Source: Brevibacillus choshinensis
GTDB lineage: Bacteria; Bacillota; Bacilli; Brevibacillales; Brevibacillaceae
Assembly: GCF_016811915.1 (NCBI RefSeq)
Contig: NZ_CP069127.1
Location: 5,156,501 to 5,220,500, forward strand
Reading direction: 5' to 3'
Length of the DNA stretch: 64,000 nt
In this document: positions 2,083 to 5,369 of the stretch, piece by piece
Layout of the letters: each line of letters starts with the position of its first letter
How positions within the stretch are numbered: the stretch's first letter is position 1
The notes under the pieces: generated by a model
Told to the model about the DNA's origin: nothing
The model's database searches: none
What the model saw: only the letters and a program-made list of their open reading frames with translations
Program-made: the position numbers and the translations under genes

Positions 2083-2847
2083 GTGCGTATTGCGTACCTC
2101 GACTGTTTCTCGGGAATCAGCGGCGATATGCTTCTGGCTGCTCTGGTGGATGCAGGCGCGGATCGGGAACGGATCGAAAGCGAGCTTCGAAAGCTCGCGT
2201 TTGGCGACTTTCGCCTGGAGTGGAAGACCGTGGTAAAAGCGGGTGTGACCGCCCTGAAGCTGGACGTCATCGACGAGACACCACCGCCTGTGAAGCCGCT
2301 CAAGCAGCTCAAAGTACTCGGTCAGCACGATCATCACCACCGGGGATACAAAGAAATCGTCGAAATGATTGAAGCGGCAGAGCTGGCTCCCCGTGTGACA
2401 GCGCGGGCTTTGGCCATTTTTGAAAAGATTGCGATCGCCGAAGCCAAAATTCACGGTGTGCCCGTGGATACCGTTCACTTTCATGAAGTCGGGGCGATCG
2501 ATTCCATCGTAGACGTCGTAGGAATTGCGCTGGGCCTGGAGGAGCTGGGAATCCATCAGCTCCATTCAGGACCCGTTCCTACCGGCAATGGCTACGTCCG
2601 CTGTGACCACGGGCTCTACCCCGTCCCGGCACCTGCCACGATGGAAATGCTCGTCGGCATTCCGCTGCGTCGCACTTTGATCGAAAAAGAATTGACAACT
2701 CCCACCGGTGCAGGAGTGGCTGCCGCTCTGGTGCACGAATTCGGTCCACTCCCCTCCATGACAGTCGAGTCAATCGGCTACGGGGCAGGCACGAGAGACT
2801 TGCCTGATCAGCCGAATGTCCTGCGTCTCCTGGTGGGTCACCGGTGA
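2083..2847 (+). CDS. larC1: LarC-family nickel insertion protein, N-terminal (LarC1-like) half only
   Basis: 254 residues. The start MRIAYLDCFSGISGDM is the signature N-terminus of LarC, the CTP-dependent cyclometallase that inserts nickel into the nickel-pincer nucleotide cofactor. The metal/phosphate-side motif HFHEVGAIDSIVDVVG is intact near residue 130, and the domain ends at the family landmark GYGAGTRDLPDQPNVLR. The protein then stops, whereas full-length LarC continues for ~150 residues with the CTP-binding C-terminal domain. I chose GTG 2083 because AAGGAG lies 8 bases upstream; an in-frame GTG at 2074 overlaps that site. The missing C-terminal domain is found in a separate gene at 4257-5237 on the other strand. 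No larA, larB or larE is in the window. Confidence 0.85.
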   Translation: MRIAYLDCFSGISGDMLLAALVDAGADRERIESELRKLAFGDFRLEWKTVVKAGVTALKLDVIDETPPPVKPLKQLKVLGQHDHHHRGYKEIVEMIEAAELAPRVTARALAIFEKIAIAEAKIHGVPVDTVHFHEVGAIDSIVDVVGIALGLEELGIHQLHSGPVPTGNGYVRCDHGLYPVPAPATMEMLVGIPLRRTLIEKELTTPTGAGVAAALVHEFGPLPSMTVESIGYGAGTRDLPDQPNVLRLLVGHR

Positions 2848-2929
2848 TCGCGGTTACATCCTATCGATAGACAGACCTCCCAATGGACATGGTAAAGATG
2901 TACTGTCCGAAGGGAGGTCTTGTGTTGCC

Positions 2930-3613
2930 TTGCTGGAGATTCTAATCCGTACGACTGCGACATTTTTCGCCATGCTTGTTCTGACACGCCTCTTGGGCAA
3001 AAAGCAGCTTAGCCATCTTACTTTCTTCAATTATGTAACGGGGATTACATTTGGGTCCGTTGCAGCCGAAATCGTCATTCAAAAGGAGCTGTTTTTGGTA
3101 AATGGACTGGTCAGTCTCACCTGGTGGACGTTATTGACCTTACTCGTAGGGTACGTTGGATTAAAATGGTCGAAAGCCCGTATCCTCATTGACGGTGAGC
3201 CTACCATCGTGATTAAGAATGGAGAAATCATTGAAGCGGCTTTATCCCGAACTCGATTGAATCTGGACGACCTCACCATGATGCTGCGCGAACGGGACGC
3301 TTTTTCCATTGGTGAAGTCGAGTACGCCATCTTGGAACCACACGGCAAATTAAGCGTTCTTAAAAAACCCGAATATCAGAACGCAACAAAAAAGGATGTA
3401 AAGGCAAGTCCACCTCTACATCCCATCCTTCCAGCTGAAATCATTTCAGATGGCAAATACGTAATGAAAAACCTTCAGGAGCTCGGAATCAGCACCAAAT
3501 GGGTGGATCGCCAGTTGAAACAATCTGGCGTGCATTCCATCGATGAGGTATTTTATGCTGAGTTGCAAAGTGACCGTAGCCTGTTCATCGACCGGCGCGA
3601 TCCTGCCGACTGA
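2930..3613 (+). CDS. DUF421 (YetF/YdfS-type) membrane protein
   Basis: About 227 residues from a TTG start at 2930, preceded by GGGAGG at 2912. The N-terminus (LEILIRTTATFFAMLVLTR) followed by LLGKKQLSHLTFFNYVTGI is the DUF421 hallmark, with about three membrane helices in the first 90 residues. The cytoplasmic part contains the usual VIKNGEI and LNLDDL segments. Members are widespread in Bacillales, often several per genome, and some affect spores or stress survival; the molecular function is unknown. The frame is open further upstream to 2816, overlapping larC1, but that extension has no family similarity or ribosome binding site. Confidence 0.85.
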   Translation: MLEILIRTTATFFAMLVLTRLLGKKQLSHLTFFNYVTGITFGSVAAEIVIQKELFLVNGLVSLTWWTLLTLLVGYVGLKWSKARILIDGEPTIVIKNGEIIEAALSRTRLNLDDLTMMLRERDAFSIGEVEYAILEPHGKLSVLKKPEYQNATKKDVKASPPLHPILPAEIISDGKYVMKNLQELGISTKWVDRQLKQSGVHSIDEVFYAELQSDRSLFIDRRDPAD

Positions 3614-3620
3614 GACTGCC

Positions 3621-4172
3621 TTATCGAAGCAATTTCAAAAACTCGCGCATGAATCCGGGCAAATCCGGCCAAGCATGCCCGGATACCAGATTGCCGTCCA
3701 CGTGCAGAGTCTCCGTCTGATAAACGGCCCCGCATGCCTCTACATCCGGTCTGCACGCCTGATACGCTGTCATTTCGCGGCCTTGCAAGTGCTCCCGAAC
3801 GATCGTCAGCACTTGTGCACCGTGGCAGATGGAGGCAACAGGCTTGTTTGCCTCAAAAAAGTGAGCGACGATGGACTTCAGGCTTTCATTCAGTCTGATG
3901 TGCTCAGGAGCTCGTCCACCCGGGATGATCAAGGCGTCAAACGCTTCCGGGTTGATTTCGGAAAACGCAGCGTGGGCAGGCAGCTGGTACGCTGGCTTTT
4001 CCGTGTACGTCTCGCTGTGAGCTTCAAAATCGTGGCAGACCGTATGTAGCGTTTTTACACTAGGCGCTGCAATGACGGTTTCATAGCCTTCTTCCAGACA
4101 ACGGTAGTACGGATAGTAAACTTCCAACGCCTCCACTGCATCTCCTGTGACAATCAACACTTTTTTGCTCAT
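3621..4172 (-). CDS. DJ-1/PfpI family protein
   Basis: 183 residues from the ATG at 4172, which has AAGGAGG 8 bases upstream; a longer in-frame start at 4211 lacks one. The nucleophile elbow Cys is in the motif VASICHGAQVL near residue 105, preceded by LIIPGGRAPEHIR, which places it in the PfpI/YraA/DJ-1 class I glutamine-amidotransferase-like superfamily. Members are described as chaperones, glyoxalases or stress proteins, and the exact activity cannot be read from sequence. It is convergent with the DUF421 gene (7-base gap), with no obvious terminator between them, and lies just downstream of the LarC-like gene on the same strand. Confidence 0.85.
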   Translation of the reverse strand: MSKKVLIVTGDAVEALEVYYPYYRCLEEGYETVIAAPSVKTLHTVCHDFEAHSETYTEKPAYQLPAHAAFSEINPEAFDALIIPGGRAPEHIRLNESLKSIVAHFFEANKPVASICHGAQVLTIVREHLQGREMTAYQACRPDVEACGAVYQTETLHVDGNLVSGHAWPDLPGFMREFLKLLR

Positions 4173-4256
4173 CTCACAGCCTCCTTCGAAAAGTAGGATC
4201 GAGGAAAACATCCTCCACTTCCAATTCTTTGGAAAGCAGCTTGGCTCCTGCTATCT

Positions 4257-5237
4257 TTACAGGAAATTCACATGACTTTTCCAGGAAGCGAGCTGGACAG
4301 CCTCTTGATACACCTGCTTCAGCGGAATGTGTGCAGCTGCAGCCAGCTTCGCGCAATCAGCGTATTCGGGTGCGACCTGCACGCGGTGCCCCCGGTGGTA
4401 TCCCAGCTTGACGACCACCTCGCCCCATTGCGTCTCGACCGTGACGAAGCGGCGTGCCAAGCGGTGACAGGCTACCGGGAACGAACGAATGCCGAATGTG
4501 GAGGTCTCCGAAAAAAGGATCGTCTTGAGCGCTTCTGCCGCGCTTTGATAGCACATTACCTGCAAAAGCGTCCCAGGACGGCTTTTTTTCATCGTTACCG
4601 GCAAGAAATGCACGTCGTTGGCGCCTGCTCGCAGGCATTGCTCCATGACGTAAGCCAGCCACTCGGGACTGCTGTCGTCCAGGTTGACCTGCATGAGCAG
4701 CATCCCTTCATCTATATGCTCTTCGGTATGATCTTTTTGCTCCCTGAGGATCGGGATGCCCAATTGATCGCTTCCCTCCTCCCAAGCGAGTACGGCCAAG
4801 TCTTCTCCGTGTTCGATGCTTTGGAAGCGCCCATGAAGCGTTGGCATCGGCACTGCACCCATCTGCGCGAGCCAAAGCATCGCATGAGGAGAAAATGACT
4901 CCACCGCCCACTCGGAGCTTTCCTTTATGACCCAGCCATTCAAAAGGGCAAGGAACGGGAGCGGCAAGCCTGCAGGAATAGGCAAGCACTGCACGAGCAA
5001 CTCCACTCTGCCCTCCCCAACCGGAAAACTCTCCGCCAATTCCACCAGCGCTGCTTCTTCCTCTTCCCATTGTTTTCGGGGGCAATCGTGACGATAGCGC
5101 TGAGCCTGCTCGATGATCCTCTCCGCGATCCCAATTCCTTGAGCCTGCACCTGATGACCGAGAATCCCCAGGCGCCGGAGCGGTCCGATCAGCCGTTTCA
5201 GCCTAAGTGGCGACACTGTACGTATGACCAGCTTCAT
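4257..5237 (-). CDS. larC2: LarC-like protein with intact C-terminal domain and degenerate N-terminal domain
   Basis: 326 residues from the ATG at 5237, which has GGAGG 7 bases upstream. The C-terminal half holds the LarC2 signature: VNLDDSSPEWLAYVMEQ, AGANDVHFLPVTMKKSRPG, then TSTFGIRS and the RRFVTVETQWGEV and KLGYHRG segments. The N-terminal ~165 residues can be laid against LarC1 by its landmarks (PIPAGLPLPFLALLNG against PVPAPATMEMLVGIPL) but lack HFHEVGAIDS and GYGAGTRDL. So this looks like a diverged full-length LarC that kept only the C-terminal function, while the gene at 2083 supplies an intact N-terminal half. The partnership is inference. An alternative is a DUF111 paralogue with an unrelated role. 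Confidence 0.75.
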   Translation of the reverse strand: MKLVIRTVSPLRLKRLIGPLRRLGILGHQVQAQGIGIAERIIEQAQRYRHDCPRKQWEEEEAALVELAESFPVGEGRVELLVQCLPIPAGLPLPFLALLNGWVIKESSEWAVESFSPHAMLWLAQMGAVPMPTLHGRFQSIEHGEDLAVLAWEEGSDQLGIPILREQKDHTEEHIDEGMLLMQVNLDDSSPEWLAYVMEQCLRAGANDVHFLPVTMKKSRPGTLLQVMCYQSAAEALKTILFSETSTFGIRSFPVACHRLARRFVTVETQWGEVVVKLGYHRGHRVQVAPEYADCAKLAAAAHIPLKQVYQEAVQLASWKSHVNFL

Positions 5238-5369
5238 TTGCTCGACCTCCATTCTCCTTTACGTTTTCCTTCCAGCATCATACCTCAAATCTTCCAGAAA
5301 GTATCTTGGATAAACAAATGGCACTGGCAGAAACTACAAAGGAAACTATCTGGGCTGGAGGGTGACGGA

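Follow-up and report, generated by a model that had tools for sequence, protein, structure and literature searches.

LarC is split between two convergent genes in Brevibacillus choshinensis and in other Bacilli

In the 64,000-nucleotide stretch of the Brevibacillus choshinensis chromosome analysed here (the window) the two domains of the nickel insertase LarC are encoded by separate genes on opposite strands, one for an intact LarC1 and one for an intact LarC2 that carries a degenerate LarC1 domain at its N-terminus. LarC is usually one chain holding both LarC1 and LarC2, and in Lactiplantibacillus plantarum the LarC1 and LarC2 frames overlap at a single locus and are joined through ribosomal frameshifting. 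The split in B. choshinensis is real, is not isolated and is a variant of the known enzyme. Judging from co-occurrence and selection, the best and most parsimonious reading is that the two genes probably specify a heteromeric, two-protein nickel insertase.

The larC1 gene (2083..2847, + strand, 254 aa) starts at the GTG at 2083, which is preceded by a AAAAGGAG ribosome-binding site, and stops at 2847. Its product is a stand-alone LarC1, the nickel-binding half of the enzyme: the PF01969 match is restricted to profile positions 1–234 of 375 (E 1.9e-92) and the NCBIfam LarC1 model TIGR00299 scores 220 bits (cut-off 90). The first-pass annotation had described this gene as the LarC1 half only, with an intact HFHEVGAIDS, and this is borne out. 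The motif is unbroken, the conserved motifs GISGDM, HFHEVGAxD, PxPAPAT, TTPTGA and GYGxG are all carried, and a short internal His loop (QHDHHHRG) is also present. All 20 Brevibacillaceae LarC1 rows retain 40 of the 41 positions at which the LarC1 domains of full-length proteins are conserved, and the AF2 model of the window protein is confident (pLDDT 92.5).

The larC2-type gene lies at 4257..5237 on the − strand (326 aa, from an ATG at 5237 that follows GGAGGT; the longest ORF begins at 5252 and gives 331 aa, the numbering used below). Its LarC2 domain (4287..4709, − strand, residues 182–322) keeps NLDD and MKKSRPG, and the NCBIfam LarC2 model NF052512 matches residues 185–301 with 137 bits (cut-off 50), so that the LarC2 half is intact, as had been claimed. 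The protein also matches PF01969 over profile positions 145–375 (E 4.4e-46), and the conserved DD, MKKxR, GxR, GxxxxK and PE are present, E188Q being the exception. The AF2 model is confident (pLDDT 91.9); in a fold search its LarC2 domain superimposed on L. plantarum LarC2 (6bwo_A) with Z 16.5 and rmsd 1.4 over 144 residues, and all hits listed, to LarC2 (6bwo, 6bwq) and to generic ferredoxin-like folds (PII, CutA), fell on the LarC2 part.

The two genes are convergent with 1.4 kb between them and are not co-transcribed. As first annotated, a DUF421/YetF gene (2816..3613, + strand, longest ORF; PF04239, E 1.5e-38) and a DJ-1/PfpI family gene (3621..4211, − strand; PF01965, E 3.7e-37, with the NCBIfam PfpI model slightly below its cut-off) lie between them; both are outside the enzyme. 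The true start of the DUF421/YetF gene is probably near 2924. Between larC1 and this gene there is a strong hairpin (2845–2925, z −2.9, −29.8 kcal/mol), and GGGAGG in its 3′ arm is apparently the DUF421 ribosome-binding site. Overlapping same-strand LarC1 and LarC2 frames of the L. plantarum type are not found in the window, and in this genome the two domains are not part of one polypeptide, which is equally true of the zero-frame products of L. plantarum and of many Bacilli.

A full-length larC, beside larB and larE or elsewhere, was looked for genome-wide and none was found: the complete 6.17-Mb one-contig genome holds no PF01969 match other than these two. The larE and larB genes (348 and 296 bits) lie at C1:1751246-1752785 (region C1:1751183-1752806 = L047:6184-7807), overlap by 8 bases in one operon and are flanked by pheT and mutS2, as read from translations, with neither larC nor larA nearby. 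A LarA homologue (557 bits with NCBIfam group 22, cut-off 400) lies in a cluster that also includes sugar-acid dehydratases, a PfkB kinase and a TRAP-type transporter (the last read from translations). With LarE, LarB and a LarA homologue present, NPN can be both made and used here, provided that the LarC halves cooperate.

Co-occurrence of the two halves across relatives, proposed earlier as a check, was then assessed. In a sample of 26 genomes of the genus both halves were present in 13 and neither in 13, with LarE and LarB over the cut-off in the same 13. Among 39 Brevibacillaceae genomes LarC1, LarB and LarE occur in an identical set of 20, 19 of which have split larC and one (G038) a full-length gene; all 19 genomes with a LarC1-only gene also have LarC2, LarB and LarE. 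Of the two observations that the first-pass annotation named as refuting its reading, an intact larC elsewhere in the genome and halves that fail to occur together in relatives, neither was made. Pathway presence and absence coexist inside four genera, which implies several independent co-losses. A Lar_N protein was not detected in 5 of the 19 split genomes; about 15% of genomes have been reported to have the NPN pathway without larA (PMC11796402). Selection on close pairs was measured as dN/dS (Nei–Gojobori, several pairs saturated at synonymous sites being excluded) and is purifying for all three domains: 0.04–0.15 for LarC1, 0.03–0.10 for LarC2 and 0.19–0.37 for the N-terminal domain of the LarC2 protein, which is thus constrained, yet less so than the active domains.

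The co-occurrence holds in one direction only: every LarC1-only genome has LarC2, but three genomes of the B. laterosporus group (G028–G030) have LarC2 alone (L038:2850-3887, L039:2730-3680 and L040:1167-2153), LarC1, LarB, LarE and LarA being absent from all three. LarC2 therefore has some use of its own and is not strictly tied to LarC1. In G028 the neighbours of the orphan gene are those of the window gene (an SbcD-like phosphoesterase and an M23 peptidase). The orphans are under strong selection (dN/dS about 0.04) and carry the changes D192E, R267E and E296D, while all other Brevibacillaceae LarC2s retain every strictly conserved residue save E188. The orphan proteins probably have another function.

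The N-terminal domain of the LarC2 protein (4710..5237, − strand, about residues 6–181, about 175 aa) had been called LarC1-like but without the motifs, and HFHEVGAIDS, GISGDM and TTPTGA are indeed missing from it. Profile score and secondary-structure order identify it, at the level of sequence comparison, as a degenerate LarC1 remnant (pseudo-LarC1), although the signal is weak and detection needed profile–profile comparison with shuffled controls. The Brevibacillaceae domain alone aligned collinearly with LarC1 with an hhalign score of 26.7 (0 of 150 column shuffles as high); with relatives added the score was 29.3, reached by none of 200 shuffles (null 13.4 ± 2.3, maximum 25.0), and the reversed control gave 15.9. 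In absolute terms this is weak (hhalign probability 9–17%, E 0.0015–0.0034 for one comparison; E 0.016 in an earlier comparison using a smaller LarC1 set), and a LarC1 profile HMM search was not convincing (E 0.042 for the window protein and at best 0.0028, for one relative). The PF01969 match of the LarC2 protein extends from LarC2 back into the remnant, and by eye the order of strands and helices agrees with that of the LarC1 models if LarC1 28–64 and 139–154 are missing, the 139–154 helix starting within HFHEVGAIDS, after its His residues. No match to the domain was listed in the fold library, which held no LarC1 structure and from which the full-length 12bi-12bl were absent. Homologues of the remnant form the N-terminal domains of LarC2s from Aneurinibacillus (E 1e-8) and, with a weaker match, from Vulcanibacillus (E 1e-3).

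An intermediate state is found in another Bacilli family (f7), in which a LarC1-only gene is accompanied about 4 kb away by a LarC with a recognizable but motif-less LarC1 domain. This domain aligns to LarC1 along its entire length (E 1.8e-25), has DTYKHDMDMGALVRIV in place of LarC1's DTVHFHEVGAIDSIVD and scores 55 with the NCBIfam LarC1 model, under the cut-off of 90; LarC1 ancestry in f7 is clear only for the L114/L115 members. In family f13 the N-terminal region is longer, and profile comparison linked it to neither LarC1 nor the domain of Brevibacillaceae. That the f7 and f13 remnants are the same domain as that of Brevibacillaceae was considered and is unsupported by profile comparison.

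The split is not confined to the genus but is much older and wider, reaching other Bacilli and the Paenibacillaceae. In the 398 Bacilli genomes surveyed LarC1 and LarC2 are commonly encoded by separate genes, and detailed reading covered 25 genomes with split larC from 13 other Bacilli family codes, in which the pairs are adjacent on the same strand, convergent or distant. Convergent (tail to tail) pairs occur in 14 Paenibacillaceae records and in Robertmurraya, and adjacent pairs in Cytobacillus and Alkalihalobacillus; many of the LarC2s lack an N-terminal domain and are about 160 aa long, and the genes are often distant or on other contigs. In two of the 25 genomes larC1 is broken into two frames while LarC2 is retained (L119:1649-2484 and L120:2070-2935), which may reflect a pseudogene, a frameshift or a sequencing error. 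In a quick LarC2 tree (144 columns) 61 split LarC2s form one clade with no full-length LarC inside (SH-aLRT 96), and the Brevibacillaceae proteins are a clade (99) nested in it; split LarC2s of family f7, G128 and the Clostridia fall outside. The Brevibacillaceae and Paenibacillus LarC1s group together in the LarC1 tree (support 96), and their LarC2s all share E188Q, a position at which 79 of 81 full-length proteins have Glu. Two side features were seen in these relatives. Stand-alone LarC1s of Paenibacillaceae (L128, L129 and L131–L142) end in His-rich tails, at the position where full-length LarC has LarC2 fused, and shorter tails occur in the stand-alone LarC1s of L094, L102 and L114–L118; the tails, of about 40–180 aa, are reminiscent of nickel-storage tails such as those of HypB and UreE. 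In family f31 (L110:1644-2768, L111:1438-2529) LarC2 is extended at its C-terminus, by about 200 aa, rather than at its N-terminus.

As to how a two-protein insertase might work, we infer that the LarC1 and LarC2 proteins associate. The LarC2 domain would bind CTP and process the cytidinylylated P2TMN intermediate, and nickel would be delivered by LarC1, which retains the nickel-handling motifs; the pseudo-LarC1 could serve as the docking part, with the active LarC1 sitting where a fused LarC1 would. The arrangement may have arisen by tail-to-tail duplication of a full-length larC, one copy losing LarC2 and the other LarC1 function, after which the remnant would have been trimmed off in some lineages (Paenibacillus) and retained in Brevibacillaceae. 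Duplication with complementary loss had been suggested in the first-pass annotation, and such an event would fit both the LarC1 remnant and the f7 intermediate. Remnant-free and remnant-bearing LarC2s are interleaved in the tree, which means either repeated loss of the remnant or its gain in two or more lines, and since remnant-free LarC2s are common among the closest relatives the split enzyme can persist without it. The more specific proposal, in which the dead pseudo-LarC1 is a docking subunit of an obligate heteromer, the Bacilli split is ancient and the B. laterosporus LarC2 has been recruited to an NPN-independent, CTP-using role, is tentative and on balance doubtful.

Other readings of the same genes can be weighed against this. 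The halves might be sequential enzymes that form no stable complex, LarC2 cytidinylylating P2TMN and releasing it before LarC1 inserts nickel; the cytidinylylated intermediate reported for Moorella LarC (PMC11796402) is compatible with this, as are the separate and often far-apart genes of the relatives, the many LarC2s of about 160 aa that have no docking domain and the persistence of LarC2 alone in three genomes. This is nevertheless unlikely, since a free-standing cytidinylyltransferase would have no need of a remnant that is under moderate purifying selection, and since LarC normally holds both domains in a single chain, which L. plantarum makes by frameshifting. It is more improbable still that the cofactor is made by LarC1 only and that the remnant–LarC2 protein has shifted to an NPN-independent role: the strongly selected B. 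laterosporus orphans, whose genomes lack LarC1, LarB, LarE and LarA, speak for it, but in all other Brevibacillaceae LarC2 tracks LarB and LarE exactly and keeps its strictly conserved residues save E188Q, to which only the orphans add D192E, R267E and E296D.

The history could also have been simpler, with larC merely broken in two, no duplication or complementary loss, and the N-terminal domain an unrelated one gained by fusion. LarC2s without the domain surround its bearers in the tree, it resembles LarC1 only weakly in sequence, and the f13 N-terminal region matches nothing tested; against these stand the collinear LarC1 profile match (29.3, above all 200 shuffles and the reversed profile), strands and helices that follow one another as in LarC1 except for the missing ones that carry the lost motifs, the Pfam profile that continues from LarC2 into the domain and the clear intermediate in f7, and we regard this origin as rather improbable. 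Broken frames are to be expected in a family in which L. plantarum larC requires a frameshift, but an artefact, that is a frameshift in or mis-assembly of a single larC gene, is refuted: the genome is complete in one contig, the genes lie on opposite strands with 1.4 kb between them, and the arrangement is seen again in 19 genomes of Brevibacillaceae and 14 records of Paenibacillaceae. A heteromeric two-protein insertase thus remains the preferred reading.

In full-length LarC CTP binding, the cytidinylylated intermediate, nickel insertion and hydrolysis all belong to a single chain. In a natural two-protein LarC the halves can be purified, mixed and mutated apart, so that assignment of steps to domains becomes directly testable. 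For genome annotation the correction is twofold: many Bacilli without a fused larC may still have the cofactor, and a LarC2-only gene is no proof of the NPN cofactor. Split larC as such is already implicit in NCBI's use of one model for LarC1 and another for LarC2, and in the larC1/larC2 names given to the L. plantarum genes; our literature search, outside which most subscription papers fell, found these used as separate names for L. plantarum/L. casei and Anaerobutyricum, and found no description of convergent split larC, pseudo-LarC1, a selected orphan LarC2 or His-rich LarC1 tails.

Compared with full-length LarC (PF01969; PDB 12bi-12bl; Moorella thermoacetica, Synechocystis), the window pair likewise has both domains with conserved residues and keeps the same genomic company (LarB, LarE and a LarA homologue), but its LarC1 and LarC2 are separate, convergent genes and its LarC2 bears a motif-less LarC1 remnant. 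With L. plantarum larC1/larC2 it shares two ORFs, one per domain, and a closely matching LarC2 fold (6bwo), whereas no frameshift could join the larC1 and larC2 of the window. The nearest parallels are the split larC genes of other Bacilli (Paenibacillus, Cytobacillus, Alkalihalobacillus, Robertmurraya, Vulcanibacillus and Aneurinibacillus), which are separate as in the window and convergent like it in Paenibacillus, Robertmurraya and Vulcanibacillus. The N-terminal domain is common to the LarC2s of Aneurinibacillus, Vulcanibacillus and Brevibacillaceae, whereas in most other split Bacilli LarC2 is bare, at about 160 aa, and the long His-rich tail of Paenibacillus LarC1 has no counterpart in the Brevibacillaceae protein.
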